From Desulfurococcus amylolyticus Z-533 (GTDB taxonomy: Archaea > Thermoproteota > Thermoprotei_A > Sulfolobales > Desulfurococcaceae), in the NCBI RefSeq assembly GCF_000513855.1, contig NZ_KI911318.1, positions 993,327 through 1,057,326 of the forward strand: a stretch of 64,000 bases of DNA. The letters are read 5' to 3'. Under the pieces are notes generated by a model. It made no database searches. It was not told where the DNA came from and worked only from the letters and a program-made list of their open reading frames with translations. The position numbers were made by a program, and so were the translations under genes. Positions 20,145-28,439 of the stretch are shown here, piece by piece (within the stretch, counting starts at the first letter, position 1; every line of letters starts with the position of its first letter).

Positions 20145-20229
20145 CACCACAACTGAAAAGATCTAGGTCCCTTCATGGCGGGAATGAGATCAGACCATAG
20201 ATTATGATCGACCATGAGATACCTCTGAC

Positions 20230-20335
20230 CCCCCTTCCCAGCCCTTTAGGTGGTTCACTGGTTCCCCGCATCTATTCAGGGTTTACGTTATCTGCGGGGC
20301 AGCCGGGGTGGCCAGAGATCCCCCATCTGGAGTTT
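20230..20335 (-). repeat. Orphan right end of a tnpB element (R3)
   Basis: Read on the minus strand this segment starts CTCCAGATGGGGGATCTCTG and runs through GGGAACCAGTGAACC to CTAAAGGGCTGG, matching the 3' end of the tnpB remnant at 9288-9412. No coding part is attached. The same end appears, shorter, at 57878-57945. In IS200/IS605 elements this zone encodes the guide RNA scaffold and the right-end target site. Confidence 0.7.
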
Positions 20336-20367
20336 TATCGGGGTTGCCGAACCCTCATCCAGTAGTT

Positions 20368-20441
20368 GGGGCAACCCTCATACCCACTGCTTCTACACTT
20401 ACCACCAAAAACAAGATAGAGAATACAGAGCCTGTAAACCT
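20368..20441 (+). repeat. R4 repeat copy, inverted with respect to 48390-48464
   Basis: GGGGCAACCCTCATACCCAC and the next 50 or so bases are an almost perfect reverse complement of 48390-48464; one base is missing in a G run and the outer edge diverges slightly. In the 48 kb copy the sequence reads into a gene fragment, so this may be a piece of the same gene family. The gap 20145-20450 contains no intact gene, only R3 and R4. Confidence 0.75.
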
Positions 20442-20450
20442 TATCCCCCG

Positions 20451-21464
20451 CTATAAATGGCGAGGCTTTCGGTTGTAAACATAGAGTACATCTGTGCCTG
20501 TTAGCAAGTATATTTCATCACCGCTTATGCTAGCTACCGGGATCCCGTAGCCTTTCTTCGCAAGCATGTATATTGTCTCCTCTTTTTCAACTAGTATAGT
20601 CTTGAACACTGATTTATCAAGAGCCACTCTAGGTAGCCTGTGCTGAATACCATGCTTTACTCTCTCATGCTGGTTATTCAAGTAGAGCAGTGCACCGGTG
20701 AGAATAGCTAGGATGGGTGTTGAGTATAGTGTTAATACTCTTGCCGAATAAATACTTATGAAGTTAAAGGGCGGGGGCATGTTTTTCTCCACAATGTTTT
20801 TCACCGTCCTGGTCTCGCTACTGCTTGTATTCGATGATGATGCAGACAATATGTTGTTTGGTTTATCGATGCTGAATAGTATTATGGGGTTGTATTGATA
20901 GACAGCAATATATCCATCAGAGTATTTAACAGTATAAGAGGCATTAATGTCAACCCCGTAGTCAAGCTTAAAGGATGCCGAGGAGATCTCCCTGTCGATA
21001 CGTGAGGCCAGTTCCAATATCTCTTCTATATTAACCGAGCCATTCACATATACGCTCCCAGGGCTACAGAAAAGTGTTAACTGGGGCTCGAGGCTTTTAC
21101 TCCATAGGGAGGATCTTAAGACACCTGAAGCACTGATATTGCACTCAATACTGGTTGCTTCACCATGCTCCGTGTTATTGTATATTACCACCTTAGCATT
21201 CAACCTGTAGAGGGAGTATTGTGCCAGTGAGAGAAAGACCCTGCTGGAGGAGATTACTGAGGCATTGTCGTATATTATAGATGGCTTCACACCCATGGTG
21301 AACAATGCATCCCCATTTATATCAGTGTACTTCACCACGTGTTCAACCACATTGTAGGGTTCGATCCTGTAGGATACAGCCATAACTACGATGCTTACGG
21401 CGAGTGCCAGGATAAGTGTAATAGTTAGGATTCTCATTGTTTTCACTAGTAACTTATTCGCCAA
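20451..21464 (-). CDS. DUF5305-type membrane protein of the pilus locus
   Basis: 337 residues. An N-terminal membrane helix (ITLILALAVSIVVMAVS) is followed by the YRIEPYNVVEHVVKYTDING segment typical of archaeal DUF5305 proteins, a long extracellular domain rich in Ser/Asn, a second helix near residues 240-262 and a cytosolic tail. DUF5305 proteins commonly sit beside SipW-like peptidases. TTG 21464 overlaps the peptidase gene by 11 bases and has GAGGTAT upstream. A role in fibre assembly, anchoring or peptidase regulation is inferred from this coupling. Confidence 0.8.
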   Translation of the reverse strand: MANKLLVKTMRILTITLILALAVSIVVMAVSYRIEPYNVVEHVVKYTDINGDALFTMGVKPSIIYDNASVISSSRVFLSLAQYSLYRLNAKVVIYNNTEHGEATSIECNISASGVLRSSLWSKSLEPQLTLFCSPGSVYVNGSVNIEEILELASRIDREISSASFKLDYGVDINASYTVKYSDGYIAVYQYNPIILFSIDKPNNILSASSSNTSSSETRTVKNIVEKNMPPPFNFISIYSARVLTLYSTPILAILTGALLYLNNQHERVKHGIQHRLPRVALDKSVFKTILVEKEETIYMLAKKGYGIPVASISGDEIYLLTGTDVLYVYNRKPRHL

Positions 21465-22665
21465 GATAAGTATACCTCAACATATTTTTAACAATATAAA
21501 TAATAAAGGTTAAACATAATAAACATGAAGCCAGGAAAAGAACAGTGTAAACGCTGCCTATAGCACCCACAGCGATGATGAATGGATAACCTATATAGGG
21601 AACTCTAAAAACCACTCTACCCAGTATAGTATTAATACATGCCCATAAGGGGTCGTCAACATTGTTTGCATCGCCCCGTGTAATCAGGCAGCTACCATCA
21701 CTGGTTACATTTACAACCCTGTGTACAACAATATTTACCCCATTAGAGAACGCTACTATATCACCAACTGAGATACTCTTGATACTCTTGGGCTCAATAA
21801 CCACTATATCACCAATACCAAGGCTTGGAGTCATACTTCCCGAGGAAATCACTAGGAGCCTGTAGCCCTGTAGAAAAGAGAAGACGAGGAGTAATGCTAC
21901 TACTAGGAGAATAAGTGAAGGATAAGCGGGTTCATGCCTGCGGATTCCACGCATCTTATTATTAGCTATTGCTCCAGCGCGATCCATGAATAGTAGTAAT
22001 CCAGTAAGGATGGTTGAGACCAATAGAGGAAGATATGCTAGAAACACGTTCATCCTCAATGGAAGAACAGGTGAGAGCTTATACATTGATACCTGTATAA
22101 GGGACAAACATAGGGATGCCTTAAACCCGTTGCTAATGTATGTAATCGTGCCAAGGATCCCCCATGCAATCCAGTACAAAGACTTCGCCACAACTGATAT
22201 CGAGGCATCAACATTCTCAAGGAGAAACAGATAAGCTAAGCCTTGAACTACCGAGGTGGAGTATAATAGAATATTGTTCGGGGTTGCTGGTGCGTGCGTG
22301 AGAATAATTTTCCTTGATGATTCTATCAGGGTTACTGAGGAAACATAATAGAAGATCGAGGCAAGATGCTGGGGAAGACTTGATATGAGAGTATTTATGC
22401 CAAAGCCTGTTAGAAGCCCTACAACAATATAAGAGATAGGTATCGAGGCAAACGCTATATAGTAGTATAAACCCATACTACCACGGGTTCCAGGCATCAA
22501 GGTGCTGAATACGCTTACAAGGACAACGGCTATTGAGGATGGAACCAGGTAATAAGAGAACCCGTAGAGTAACCCGGTAAACTTTGATAAAGCCGTGAAA
22601 ATAATCCATGACACATAAAGTAGCAAAGAAATTAGATAGGTGTTACGGGAAAAAAGACTATTCAA
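21454..22665 (-). CDS. Archaeal signal peptidase I, SipW/SEC11 type with large membrane N-terminus
   Basis: 403 residues. The first 240 residues contain about seven predicted membrane helices, far more than the 1-2 of ordinary archaeal signal peptidases. The S26 catalytic domain follows: SSGSMTPSLGIGDIVVIEP (nucleophile Ser near 275), NGVNIVVHRVV (His rather than Lys) and TRGDANNVDDP (Asp), giving the ER/SipW-type Ser-His-Asp site. One helix closes the protein. TTG 22665 sits behind GAGGTGG, 22 bases after the neighbouring pilin gene. It most likely processes the adjacent TasA-like proteins, as SipW does for TasA. Confidence 0.88.
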   Translation of the reverse strand: MNSLFSRNTYLISLLLYVSWIIFTALSKFTGLLYGFSYYLVPSSIAVVLVSVFSTLMPGTRGSMGLYYYIAFASIPISYIVVGLLTGFGINTLISSLPQHLASIFYYVSSVTLIESSRKIILTHAPATPNNILLYSTSVVQGLAYLFLLENVDASISVVAKSLYWIAWGILGTITYISNGFKASLCLSLIQVSMYKLSPVLPLRMNVFLAYLPLLVSTILTGLLLFMDRAGAIANNKMRGIRRHEPAYPSLILLVVALLLVFSFLQGYRLLVISSGSMTPSLGIGDIVVIEPKSIKSISVGDIVAFSNGVNIVVHRVVNVTSDGSCLITRGDANNVDDPLWACINTILGRVVFRVPYIGYPFIIAVGAIGSVYTVLFLASCLLCLTFIIYIVKNMLRYTYLGE

Positions 22666-22687
22666 TTAAAGCCACCTCGTATTCAAC

Positions 22688-23365
22688 TTATGGAGATTGC
22701 GCCGGGACACTGTACTCGTTCCACTGAACAGCCTGCAAGCTTATCGTGAAACTAAGTACCGTGTTCTGTGGAGCACTCTGCAGTACTGTTAGATCAAAGC
22801 TTATATCAGCTGATTGACAGGGATGGAGCTGAGCGCCGAAGTTGTCTCCCCACCAGATCAATATATCTGGTGCTTCATCATTGTTTAAATCTAATTCGAC
22901 ACCCTGTTGTAGCACTTGCTCGTTCAACTCGTAGTAGTATCGTCCATCTATTATTACTCTCCATATCTTCAATGGGATTGAACCATCATTGTGAACCTTC
23001 ATGGCTATGTGGGTATAATACCATGGATAAACATTATACAATCTCACATTCATGGTATCCATGTCTCCATCGCCATCACTATCTATCAATGCTACATCAG
23101 TACATCCTACATCCTTATCAAGCTGGAGAACGCCTGGTGAAGGTAGGTGTGTGGCATTCCAGTCGTTACCTTTATAGGATCCGAAGCCAGGCTGGAGCCC
23201 GCATGCATCCAGCCATATGGTTGACCCTTTCACAATCTCCCAGTCTAGTTCACCAGTGCCAACATATGTGTTTGCTCTTAATATATCCAGCCACATTGAT
23301 GCTCCAAGCAGTAGTCCTACTATGATTAATAGGGTGGCCAATACTATTACATATATTCTATTCAT
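22688..23365 (-). CDS. TasA/AbpA-like secreted fibre subunit (SipW-type signal), paralogue 1
   Basis: 225 residues. The first 25 residues are a hydrophobic signal helix followed by SMWLDILRANTYVGTGELDW, the SipW-dependent motif shared with the next gene (MWYETLLVNTYVETGEV). The body is beta-rich with a calcium-type DSDGDGDMD loop and two early Cys; it ends with VLQSAPQNTVLSFTISLQAV and QWNEY. Archaeal bundling-pilus protein AbpA and bacterial TasA have this layout. ATG 23365 is behind TTAGGTG. The DxDxDGD-like loop suggests metal-dependent folding or bundling. Confidence 0.82.
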   Translation of the reverse strand: MNRIYVIVLATLLIIVGLLLGASMWLDILRANTYVGTGELDWEIVKGSTIWLDACGLQPGFGSYKGNDWNATHLPSPGVLQLDKDVGCTDVALIDSDGDGDMDTMNVRLYNVYPWYYTHIAMKVHNDGSIPLKIWRVIIDGRYYYELNEQVLQQGVELDLNNDEAPDILIWWGDNFGAQLHPCQSADISFDLTVLQSAPQNTVLSFTISLQAVQWNEYSVPAQSP

Positions 23366-23482
23366 ATCTAATACACCTAATGCTATGTGTTAAATGGGTC
23401 CGGGTATGAGCCCCGTTGCCTTTGAAAAAGCATATATTAATGATCCTAGTATTACATGAATTGGTTAGCTGACTGTCGTGAT

Positions 23483-24046
23483 TTATGGTACCTCGTTCCA
23501 CTGTGCATATGTGAATTCAAGCCCGAAACTGTAATCTGTATCCTCACTAGCAGTTTGCAACACCGTTATATTAATTGTTATGTCATGTGTGCCTTCTGGA
23601 TGGAGCTGTGTGTTCTCGGGTACCGTGATAGTAACGCTTAAGGCCTGGTTATCATATCCACCATCGGTGAAGACGTGGTTTAAGAGTTTAACTGGTATCG
23701 TGCCAATGTTCTTCACGGTAAGGGTTATAACCGGGTTATAACCTGGATACGCGTTCACGAGTGTTATATGTACTTTCACCACATTTCCCTCCCCATCGTA
23801 TTCTTCAGGCTCCACTATACATTGAGCCACGTCTTTTCCTTCATCGTTATGGAAGTTTGAGCCTGGTAACTGCGGGTCTGGGCCCTTATCACTGCATTGC
23901 CAATCGGCCCATGCTACCTTGACTTCCCCTGTCTCGACATACGTGTTTACTAGTAGTGTTTCATACCACATTGCCATAGCTGTTCCTAATGCTAGGATTG
24001 CTAGCCCTGCAAGGGCTAATCCCATTACGGTATTTAATGCTTTCAT
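23483..24046 (-). CDS. TasA/AbpA-like secreted fibre subunit, paralogue 2
   Basis: 187 residues. Signal helix (MGLALAGLAILALGTAMA) leads into MWYETLLVNTYVETGEVKVA; the C-terminus VLQTASEDTDYSFGLEFTYA then QWNEVP matches paralogue 1 closely. The length is near that of AbpA-type pilins. There are two Cys in the early body (WQCSDKG, VAQCIVE). ATG 24046 has a TTGGTG site. The longer intergenic region before paralogue 1, with its own TATA-like element, may allow separate expression. Predicted to be exported, cleaved by the adjacent peptidase and polymerised. Confidence 0.85.
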   Translation of the reverse strand: MKALNTVMGLALAGLAILALGTAMAMWYETLLVNTYVETGEVKVAWADWQCSDKGPDPQLPGSNFHNDEGKDVAQCIVEPEEYDGEGNVVKVHITLVNAYPGYNPVITLTVKNIGTIPVKLLNHVFTDGGYDNQALSVTITVPENTQLHPEGTHDITINITVLQTASEDTDYSFGLEFTYAQWNEVP

Positions 24047-24146
24047 TTTACTACACCAAGAACTTCATATTATACCTTGATTATTAAATATCTAAGCCAA
24101 ATTATTTACATATCTAACATATATATTTAAAATACATAAAGCAAAG

Positions 24147-24743
24147 CTACATGGATAATACCATTATTTTCGACGCATCTATTTTTCCCAGGAGATCCGT
24201 GACAACATGTTTCTCACTAGACCCCTTAACTACCAGTATAGCCGGGACCCCTATATCGGTGGATATCACAAGCATCCTTATACACGCCTCCATAAGTATA
24301 TCTGGTTCACAACTTAATACAGTATCCACAATATAGCTTCCCGACGAGTTCTTAATAGTATAGACATAGTGGTAAGCCCCGGATACACCCTTGTACCCTT
24401 GCCATCCATGCACCTTTACCATACAACCCAGATTACGCTCTATAACAGTGTTTAACTTCTTGTCCACAAGCCCGTCGCCTTCATCACCTTCCAAAAGCAT
24501 TCTCTTTAAATTCCTTATCCGCTCTAAGAGTATTTTACCCTTATTACTTAGTATGTACTCTGAAGCATCCCCTATCTTCAGTATGAAGCCTTTCCTAATG
24601 AGCATCGATAAATACTTCTCGAATACCATGGTGTTAAGGTTTGAAGCATACAGCATATGGGTCTTGATGCTTTTTCCTTCCCTACGTAGATTCTCTAGGA
24701 TACATTCCACAATATCAATGCTCGATCTATGTTGCTTATTCAT
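24147..24743 (-). CDS. Winged-helix DNA-binding protein within the pilus locus
   Basis: About 198 residues. Residues 1-80 form a winged-helix domain of the archaeal HTH_45 kind (SSIDIVECILENLRREGKSI, FEKYLSMLIRKGFILKIG, YILSNKGKILLERI). The C-terminal part (GSYIVDTVLSCEPDILMEAC, VPAILVVKGSSE) is an alpha/beta domain I do not recognise. ATG 24743 is preferred over a GTG five codons upstream. Being flanked by fibre-subunit genes on the same strand, it is a good candidate for regulating their expression. Confidence 0.75.
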   Translation of the reverse strand: MNKQHRSSIDIVECILENLRREGKSIKTHMLYASNLNTMVFEKYLSMLIRKGFILKIGDASEYILSNKGKILLERIRNLKRMLLEGDEGDGLVDKKLNTVIERNLGCMVKVHGWQGYKGVSGAYHYVYTIKNSSGSYIVDTVLSCEPDILMEACIRMLVISTDIGVPAILVVKGSSEKHVVTDLLGKIDASKIMVLSM

Positions 24744-24880
24744 TACTACCACGCACACGAAATAAAATAGCGGCTGCTGATTAAAATAGTATTTTAGTTA
24801 TTAATATTTTTTATGTATTGTTTATACATATATATTAAATAACTTGAGTAATTACCTAATACGCTATTATCTTTATATTA

Positions 24881-25441
24881 TCAATTAATAGATATATTCG
24901 CGGTATAGCTAACAATATTGCCCGTCACTATCTCGATCCATGAAACAAGCTTGAATCCTGCCTCGACATCAATGTTAAGCGAATTACCAATATATCCTGG
25001 AACAGGCAGGTTACTGCATTTTATTTCTCCCCAATAAGGCTTGTTTCCAATACCTGTTTTAACCGGAGGGTAGACGTATATCTGTATTACGGGATTTACT
25101 GCACCTTCACGAGTAGCTATTGATACACTGATATTCCTTAGGGTTGCTGTAACTACATCATTGTTCTCGACGACAAGTCCAACCCATACCGTGGATGCAT
25201 TATCCACATGGATCATAAGTGACCTATTATCGGTTGAAAGAACCACATCATTCACGCCTTTACACACGTACTCATTTGCTGCAAATACTTTCCAAGAGCC
25301 TATTTCAAGATACGGCTTCCTTATATGAATGTAAATGTTCGCCTTTAAGCTGTCATACCACATTGAGTATCCTGCTGAAGCAGTAATGACTGCTATAAGC
25401 AGTAATGCGAACACGATAATACTAATTTCATATTCATGCAT
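24881..25441 (-). CDS. Divergent TasA-like secreted protein, paralogue 3
   Basis: 186 residues. The N-terminal helix (IIVFALLLIAVITASAGYS) is followed by MWYDSLKANIYIHIRKPYLE, recognisably the same SipW-type motif as the two pilins downstream, but without TGE. The VLQ(S/T)A segment is absent; the C-terminus reads FKLVSWIEIVTGNIVSY. Two cysteines (EYVCKGV, IKCSNLP) could form a disulfide. It may be a minor or tip subunit. ATG 25441 has no strong ribosome site. Confidence 0.72.
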   Translation of the reverse strand: MHEYEISIIVFALLLIAVITASAGYSMWYDSLKANIYIHIRKPYLEIGSWKVFAANEYVCKGVNDVVLSTDNRSLMIHVDNASTVWVGLVVENNDVVTATLRNISVSIATREGAVNPVIQIYVYPPVKTGIGNKPYWGEIKCSNLPVPGYIGNSLNIDVEAGFKLVSWIEIVTGNIVSYTANISIN

Positions 25442-25586
25442 AATTAAATCAGCTCGGCCATGATAAGAGATAACATATAGTACTTATAAACCAAGTGTAT
25501 AAGACATACTTTAAACCAGCCGAGGATTCCTCTAGATACCAACTAATTCATGGATATACAAGATTAGAAAAAACTGTTTTTGAAAA

Positions 25587-25859
25587 CTAGCTGGACTGGG
25601 ATTGAGGTCCACTGCTCTCCTTCTTTGCTTCCTCCTCGATCTCCTTTTCTATCTCCTCAATGGGTTTAGGAGGAGGTGTTGTTGCAAGTGTGTACCCTAT
25701 CCATCCAAGTATTCCGAAGACTCCTGCAACAGCTATTAGTAGCGTTAACTGCATTAATAGCCCTGAATACTGTGTGAAGAATAATACGTAGGCATAGATT
25801 AGCACTACAATGATCGATATTGCTAGCAGGCCCCATCCAATCACTTGATCCCTACTCAA
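25587..25859 (-). CDS. Small two-span membrane protein
   Basis: 90 residues: two membrane helices (about 8-28 and 37-60) and a charged tail rich in Glu/Lys (EEIEKEIEEEAKKE) ending SSGPQSQSS. TTG 25859 follows GGGGTTAGGG. Context is the ribosomal genes S27e/L44e to its right and the fibre locus to its left; no function can be assigned. The N-terminal MSRDQVIGWGLLAISI looks conserved-type rather than random. Confidence 0.75.
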   Translation of the reverse strand: MSRDQVIGWGLLAISIIVVLIYAYVLFFTQYSGLLMQLTLLIAVAGVFGILGWIGYTLATTPPPKPIEEIEKEIEEEAKKESSGPQSQSS

Positions 25860-27125: not shown

Positions 27126-27206
27126 ACTAGGTCACCCTAACACTATTATCTAGGGCAACCCTTAAAACAATAAGCCATAATAGTCTTGGTTACAGTTAAT
27201 ATACTA

Positions 27207-28439
27207 ATGGTGGTTGAGACGCCTAGAATAGCCTGTAGCGTGATCAGTGTACTAGCCATACTATTACTTATAATCCCCATGGCGCAGGGAAGCATCGGTA
27301 ATCTAGTGGTGAAGACCCTTATCTACGAGGGGGTTATAGAGCTATCTCTCATGGGTAAATCCATTAAAGACGTCATAGGCCTCAATATTTCAAGCCCAGT
27401 TTCACTTTCAATAACATATAAGGTTGAGGAAAACATCTCGTTTACACACCCTGAGCTAACACCTTACGCGTGCAGTATACACATTTACATAGTATCTGTA
27501 ACAGGGTCGACACAGCTACCAGAAAACTGGATAAAAAAACTGGGTTCATGGAGTAATAGTATTGAGCTACAAGGGGATGAGTGTATTAATCCGCCACTGG
27601 TTTTATTCATCAGGAATGGTGAGATAGCCCTGGATAACATATCTAAGACAGGTACCATGACAGGTATCACGAGGCTAGACGTGGATACAGTGCACTTGGT
27701 AGGCGGTAACCCCTTCTTAACGCTTAATCACACCATATACTCGAGCTTCTGGAGTCTATATTACGAGCCCTTATCAGGGATAGTAATATACTATACGCAA
27801 GTATATAATAATAGAAGCCCCGAGGGTGATGTCTTCTTCTACTCATTAACGTTGATGCTGAATAATTACCAGGATATATTCTATGATATCGTAAAAAGAG
27901 AGGTAATAGATTTAAGACCTCTGAACTCCTCGACCACTCCCAGCATCATATTGGTGTATCTGAACTCATTGGGTAATTCAAATGATATCCCCCGCATAAA
28001 TTCAACAAACAACTCCATAACTATATTATTCGATGAACCCACATACTGTTTCATAGAGGCCGGTCCATTTGACCCTCTGGTGAACATCAGCTCTAATATA
28101 GAGTTATACAGGTATTCCACGATCAACGGGTTAACCATATATTATAGTATGAAGACCCCGTGTAAAATCCTATGGTTTAATCTAAGTAATCCCATGAATA
28201 CAGGGGGAAGCCCGGTGGCGAGCGAGAAGGGAGTACCCCCTAAGTATATACAGCCGGGCATGGATTCGATTATTTTCACTATAATGACTGTCTCCGCGGT
28301 CTTATATATAGTATATTCCGTGATCAACTGGCTCATCAAGAAGTACTATGATGTCATCTTTCCCGCTTTAAACCATGCTTCAAATTATACCTGTATACAG
28401 ACAACGGGTTCCTGCCGCCCTTGCACCTATCACTTATAG
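27207..28439 (+). CDS. Membrane-anchored surface protein, unknown family
   Basis: About 410 residues from ATG 27207; an upstream TTG at 27186 is weaker. There is a signal peptide (ISVLAILLLIIPMAQG), a long extracellular domain with many N-glycosylation sequons, and a C-terminal membrane helix (SIIFTIMTVSAVLYIVYSVI) followed by about 30 cytosolic residues. I do not recognise a family. Its last 86 bases overlap the end of the convergent primase gene, an unusually long overlap; the natural C-terminus is read as is. Codon use resembles the neighbours. Confidence 0.72.
   Translation: MVVETPRIACSVISVLAILLLIIPMAQGSIGNLVVKTLIYEGVIELSLMGKSIKDVIGLNISSPVSLSITYKVEENISFTHPELTPYACSIHIYIVSVTGSTQLPENWIKKLGSWSNSIELQGDECINPPLVLFIRNGEIALDNISKTGTMTGITRLDVDTVHLVGGNPFLTLNHTIYSSFWSLYYEPLSGIVIYYTQVYNNRSPEGDVFFYSLTLMLNNYQDIFYDIVKREVIDLRPLNSSTTPSIILVYLNSLGNSNDIPRINSTNNSITILFDEPTYCFIEAGPFDPLVNISSNIELYRYSTINGLTIYYSMKTPCKILWFNLSNPMNTGGSPVASEKGVPPKYIQPGMDSIIFTIMTVSAVLYIVYSVINWLIKKYYDVIFPALNHASNYTCIQTTGSCRPCTYHL

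Follow-up and report, generated by a model that had tools for sequence, protein, structure and literature searches.

In Bacillus subtilis (TasA-SipW-TapA) and B. cereus (CalY/TasA), subunits of the TasA superfamily with a SipW-type signal are encoded beside a dedicated signal peptidase, in loci that hold more than one secreted partner (PMC9674648, PMC10151520, PMC13082335). Among archaea, the bundling pilus of Pyrobaculum calidifontis, built of AbpA, is described in papers citing Wang 2022 as a TasA-like donor-strand fibre, the thread of Sulfolobus acidocaldarius (Saci_0406; PMC9715654, PDB 7pnb) combines a type I signal peptide and an N-terminal donor strand with a beta-sandwich, and the AbpX fibre of Pyrodictium abyssi has been solved (PDB 9sj2, 9rhp; ABPx in PMC11952670). 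In this study, we describe a six-gene cluster of the thermophilic archaeon Desulfurococcus amylolyticus Z-533 that very probably encodes a heteromeric extracellular donor-strand fibre of the TasA/archaeal bundling pilus class. It lies in a stretch of 64,000 nucleotides (hereafter the window; contig NZ_KI911318.1, positions 993,327 to 1,057,326) and can be understood as a version of a known fibre class that uses several subunits. One of its products, a protein of the DUF5305 family, is a candidate assembly factor of a kind not yet studied.

The six open reading frames (ORFs) are all on the minus strand and run from window position 25441 to 20451 in the order P0003, the winged-helix protein P0006, P0002, P0001, the signal peptidase P0004 and the DUF5305 protein P0005, with gaps of 122, 100, 117, 22 and -11 nt counted from the 25441 end. 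A previous reading made from the letters alone (the sequence-only reading) had described such a tightly spaced, same-strand arrangement; the winged-helix ORF (24147-24758), which sits within the block and is part of the cluster too, is an addition to its gene list. Its proposal was a donor-strand fibre system of the TasA/AbpA type, accompanied by a signal peptidase of its own, in a Desulfurococcales-type host. Fibre class, peptidase and host agree with our analysis, in which family profiles match AbpX, abpX likewise comes with a peptidase of the same family, and relatives place the host in Desulfurococcales. The best match, however, is AbpX of Pyrodictium rather than AbpA, which that reading had mentioned.

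The AbpX subunit is homologous to P0002 and has the same N-terminal donor-strand sequence, and its gene is followed directly by one for a signal peptidase of the same two-domain family, which in loci of the window type likewise stands beside the subunit genes. At the abpX locus a single subunit gene and neither a DUF5305 nor a winged-helix gene was found, whereas the window cluster encodes three subunits and both additional proteins. Compared to the Bacillus TasA loci, the window proteins are remote in sequence (related at profile level only), the peptidase has a large additional membrane domain, the locus includes DUF5305 and winged-helix proteins, and no TapA homolog was identified. The S. 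acidocaldarius thread has no sequence match to the window proteins and a weak fold match to them. To our knowledge, no TapA-like initiator has been identified in archaea.

Kinship and N-terminal strand of the three secreted proteins

The sequence-only reading had noticed that three proteins share a hydrophobic N-terminal helix followed by an MW motif, and two of them a C-terminal element. Indeed, among the 227 ORFs of the window (about 30,000 residues), exactly three contain the pattern MW[YFLMSTA][DE]xLxxNxY, each time immediately after a hydrophobic N-terminal helix, and exactly two contain QWNE. These proteins are P0003 (186 aa; 24881..25441, minus strand, as for all features of the cluster), P0002 (187 aa; 23483..24046) and P0001 (225 aa; 22688..23365). 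P0001 and P0002 match each other directly (BLASTP E=2e-20) and as family profiles (hhalign 100%, E 9e-46), and the P0003 family matches that of P0002 (99.0%, E 9e-18) and that of P0001 (98.6%). Because of these pairwise matches, the three proteins are, by sequence comparison, paralogs of common ancestry, and the sharing of the motif is not due to chance.

Pfam, NCBIfam and single-sequence PDB searches of the window proteins yielded little; for the firm link to AbpX, family profiles built from relatives and searched against PDB sequences were needed. The P0002 profile finds AbpX at E 2.3e-13, or E 2e-17 with a wider alignment (chain 9sj2_C), and the P0001 profile at E 2.4e-7. In the reciprocal search of the window's genome with AbpX, the P0002 gene is the sole match (E 4e-4). 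A TasA/camelysin profile, built separately from proteins of Firmicutes genomes, recovers both TasA (1.1e-11) and AbpX (1.3e-4) among PDB sequences, and it matches the P0002 family (hhalign 97.6%, E 4e-12) and the P0001 family (97.9%, E 4e-13). The TasA likeness suggested by the sequence-only reading is thus upheld for P0001 and P0002, whose sequences suffice to place them in the TasA/ABP superfamily, and not directly for P0003, which joins it via its homology to the other two.

Since the shared motif, MW(Y/S)ExLxxNxYxxTG, lines up with the beginning of mature AbpX and is preceded by a small residue, it is best read as a donor strand that follows a type I signal-peptidase site. In chain 9sj2_C the sequence WSETLSLSATISTG starts at the second residue, and in the construct 9rhp_A it is placed at the C-terminal end, behind glycines, so that this construct appears, from its sequence, to be self-complemented. 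The genomic precursor of AbpX reads LTYAQWSETL, and in the alignment of the P0002 family MWSETL... is preceded by a small residue at position -1 in nearly all members, and W, L and TG are among the residues that vary least in the mature protein. The predicted donor strands cover residues 26-40 of P0002 (AMA↓MWYETLLVNTYVETG; 23927..23971), residues 24-38 of P0001 (MWLDILRANTYVGTG; 23252..23296; P0001 profile against AbpX and the P0002 family) and residues 27-41 of P0003 (GYS↓MWYDSLKANIYI; 25319..25363; alignment with the N-terminal strand of AbpX and P0002). The P0002 stretch parallels AYFTD...NTFTAGT of TasA relatives, and TasA fibres have an equivalent N-terminal strand (PMC9674648). The SipW-type signal model TIGR04088 matches 11 of the 42 P0002-family members, the window protein itself not being one of them. 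From these alignments we infer signal cleavage and strand exchange.

Structure prediction and fold comparison, which the sequence-only reading had named as checks, gave a beta-sandwich predicted with confidence, its N-terminal tail being free in the case of P0002, whereas the comparison with known folds fell short of significance. The AlphaFold2 model of mature P0002 (predicted local distance difference test, pLDDT, 89.3) has eight strands. Its first 18 residues take no part in the fold and are predicted with low confidence at their tip, as would be expected of a free donor strand. The model of the P0001 precursor reaches a pLDDT of 84.7. With Foldseek, the P0001 and P0002 models find TasA (8aur; 0.067 and 0.041) and the thread (7pnb; 0.089 and 0.018), amid many other beta-sandwiches. 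Several donor-strand pilins are among the best 50 matches of P0002 (PapG pilin domain, 0.0068; the thread; CS17; FimG; CfaB; TasA), which is suggestive only, since many unrelated Ig-like sandwiches appear in the same best 50 and the comparison comes with no control.

P0001 contains two conserved acidic loops, DSDGDGDMDTMN (residues 95-106; 23048..23083) and DLNNDEAPD (residues 159-167; 22865..22891). Across 33 relatives, D95, G98, D99 and D167 are conserved in at least 90%, and D159 and D163 are invariant. At the level of a guess, both loops are candidate Ca2+ sites. An identity of P0001 as an FG-GAP/Ca2+ adhesin was rejected, as it was suggested by a weak loop match alone (0.0086).

The signal peptidase and the DUF5305 protein

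P0004 (403 aa; 21454..22665) combines a membrane domain of about 250 aa (window 21913-22665) with an S26B Ser/His/Asp domain, in agreement with the catalytic residues and the large membrane domain recognized by the sequence-only reading. It scores 83 bits against TIGR02228 (cut-off 51.85; E 1.8e-23) and 7.3e-16 against the SipW model, and Ser277, His315, Asp332 and Asp338 are invariant across 30 relatives; by these features it is an archaeal signal peptidase I (S26B). The membrane domain has no Pfam match and shows a conserved ExxR and conserved G/P positions. A separate, general signal peptidase of 156 aa is encoded elsewhere in the window's genome, and P0004 is therefore an extra, cluster-linked enzyme. 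The same pairing is seen next to abpX. Genome G182, which we take as P. abyssi because one of its proteins shows 100% identity to AbpX over the 138 residues used in the search, has a P0004-family signal peptidase (5.4e-57) as the next gene directly downstream of abpX.

P0005 (337 aa; 20451..21464) is predicted from hydropathy to consist of a domain flanked by membrane helices at the N- and C-terminal ends. It had been labelled DUF5305, and although the window protein itself remains below the threshold of Pfam PF17231, 23 of its 26 aligned orthologs match this model (best E 4.5e-36), so that P0005 is, by its orthologs, a DUF5305 protein. Fibre subunits are found in 35 of the 41 genomes with DUF5305, compared to 82 of the 229 genomes of the class overall (hypergeometric P=6e-13, uncorrected for shared ancestry), and in nearly all of these 35 genomes, in tables read by eye, DUF5305 lies within a few kb of the subunits on the same contig. 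The literature search made turned up no paper on DUF5305. We consider that P0005 may anchor the fibre or act in its assembly.

Three genomes of one other, Sulfolobaceae-like family lack an AbpX-type match and carry DUF5305 beside a signal-peptidase-like gene and a small protein with an N-terminal helix (L182:7434-9908, L183:6727-9216, L184:4502-7850); one of these loci was confirmed by profile and two were read from sequence.

Fibre assembly and competing explanations

We infer the assembly route, with its polymerisation, bundling, subunit roles and stoichiometry, from these homologies and from gene linkage. The Sec pathway would export P0001, P0002 and P0003 by their SipW-type N-terminal helices, and the cluster's own membrane signal peptidase P0004 would cut each of them just before MW. 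This cut would free the N-terminal strand MWxETLxxNxYxxTG, which could enter an open groove in the beta-sandwich of the next subunit and so build a stable filament. P0002, the AbpX-like protein, is most likely the main repeating unit. P0001, found in nearly all loci, would be another subunit, with loops that may bind Ca2+. P0003 may be a minor subunit that starts the fibre or forms its tip; its place in the cluster is taken in some relatives by a longer protein, in which a TasA-like domain is joined to SdrD_B/Ig-like domains. Next to the peptidase, the membrane-anchored P0005 probably keeps the fibre attached to the membrane or nucleates it there, and P0006 may regulate the cluster. A further proposal joins P0004 and DUF5305 in a membrane unit devoted to assembly, in which signal cleavage would be coupled to strand insertion and which would both start and anchor the mixed TasA-type fibre. 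Archaea and bacteria would share this unit, and the Sulfolobaceae-like genomes would reuse it with other subunits; we put this forward tentatively, as somewhat more doubtful than not.

Several results weigh against this reading. The P0003 profile reaches AbpX only at E 0.0099 and the TasA/camelysin family with only 42.8% probability (hhalign). None of the three window proteins matches Pfam PF12389, which recognizes 4 of the 42 P0002-family members at E <=0.1 (best 2e-4). AbpA of Pyrobaculum is absent from the PDB sequence matches of the family profiles at E up to 10 and from the best 50 fold matches, and the Foldseek searches of the P0001 and P0002 models against PDB gave no match below E 0.001. 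Finally, DUF5305 and a second subunit are not essential to every fibre of the AbpX kind, because P. abyssi abpX has the peptidase nearby but neither of these two.

Among the alternatives, an exchange of roles fares best, though we regard it as unlikely. Here, donor-strand assembly would be right, the rod would be made mainly of P0001 with its acidic loops, and P0002 would initiate the fibre or be a minor component. Loci keep P0001 almost as strictly as P0002, and the title of Sleutel 2024, cited in PMC11952670, names Ca2+-dependent assembly of Pyrodictium cannulae; yet AbpX is closer to P0002 and makes fibres without a second subunit encoded alongside. Improbable, in our view, is that TasA ancestry and SipW-type export are right but the products are monomeric or small-oligomer surface proteins that do not polymerise. 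The missing PF12389 matches, the fold search without significance and the occurrence of P0003-type genes alone, away from the cluster, would fit such proteins. Against them speak the strong conservation of the donor-strand motif, its match to the N-terminal strand of a fibre subunit of solved structure, and the joint retention of two different subunits in nearly all loci. We rejected type IV pilins or archaellins, to which we give next to no credence in spite of the hydrophobic N-terminal helix and weak matches to ArlG, UpsA and flagellin models, since the conserved type I-like cleavage position AxA↓MW follows the hydrophobic helix instead of preceding it, the adjacent peptidase is of type I and not class III, and the block has no pilus ATPase or platform gene.

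The analysis sets the solved AbpX fibre in the context of a gene cluster that is widespread and encodes several subunits, and it names the likely peptidase of this fibre and a helper family, DUF5305. Start and attachment of TasA/ABP-type fibres in archaea thereby become directly testable.

Distribution of the cluster and neighbouring genes

The gene order is conserved across dozens of loci, and the cluster recurs in dozens of Desulfurococcales genomes, with P0001- and P0002-type subunits kept together in nearly all loci. Remoter versions are found in Archaeoglobaceae, in Desulfovirgula and other Firmicutes, and in a metagenome-assembled genome (MAG) of Dehalococcoidia (Chloroflexi), and Pfam PF12389 has no match in the eight genomes carrying the remote bacterial or archaeal loci; the presence of the same gene set in thermophilic Firmicutes and the Chloroflexi MAG bears on a common origin of archaeal and bacterial biofilm fibres. 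No match to P0002 was found in a plasmid collection. Two genomes of the same genus (G001 and G002) lack the cluster. G002 has a clean empty site: its genes run glycerol kinase, hydrolase, 90-aa membrane protein, S27e and L44e, and 246 bp (L141:2297-2542) separate the hydrolase from the membrane protein at the position of the window's block (window 20145-25586). This clean absence shows that the block behaves as a unit.

Some loci encode a longer third paralog of 438-469 aa with a TasA-like N-terminal domain followed by SdrD_B or Ig-like domains (with SdrD_B at L112:1724-3115, L104:6399-7808 and L120:6561-7877, the last with a masked run inside the gene), possibly a tip adhesin. P0003-type genes, several of them Cys-rich, also stand alone with no fibre cluster beside them (L189:4467-5066, L190:6581-7189, L191:6065-6670, L192:5847-6443, L193:1433-2050, L194:4160-4751). 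One P0002 ortholog (G007:C1:63044-63595) has an in-frame TGA, pointing to a broken gene or an assembly error.

A P0006-type winged-helix gene adjoins the cluster in most related loci. P0006 (203 aa; 24147..24758), a candidate regulator with an HTH_45/Sso10a-like N-terminus, matches Pfam PF14947 (HTH_45) at 1.3e-15 and Sso10a_fam at 2.4e-14, the latter slightly below cut-off. Outside the cluster, the two-helix membrane protein of 90 aa (window 25587-25859), next to S27e/L44e, is kept in both same-genus genomes, and a protein of 417 aa (window 27186-28439) without a Pfam match is conserved in the genus.

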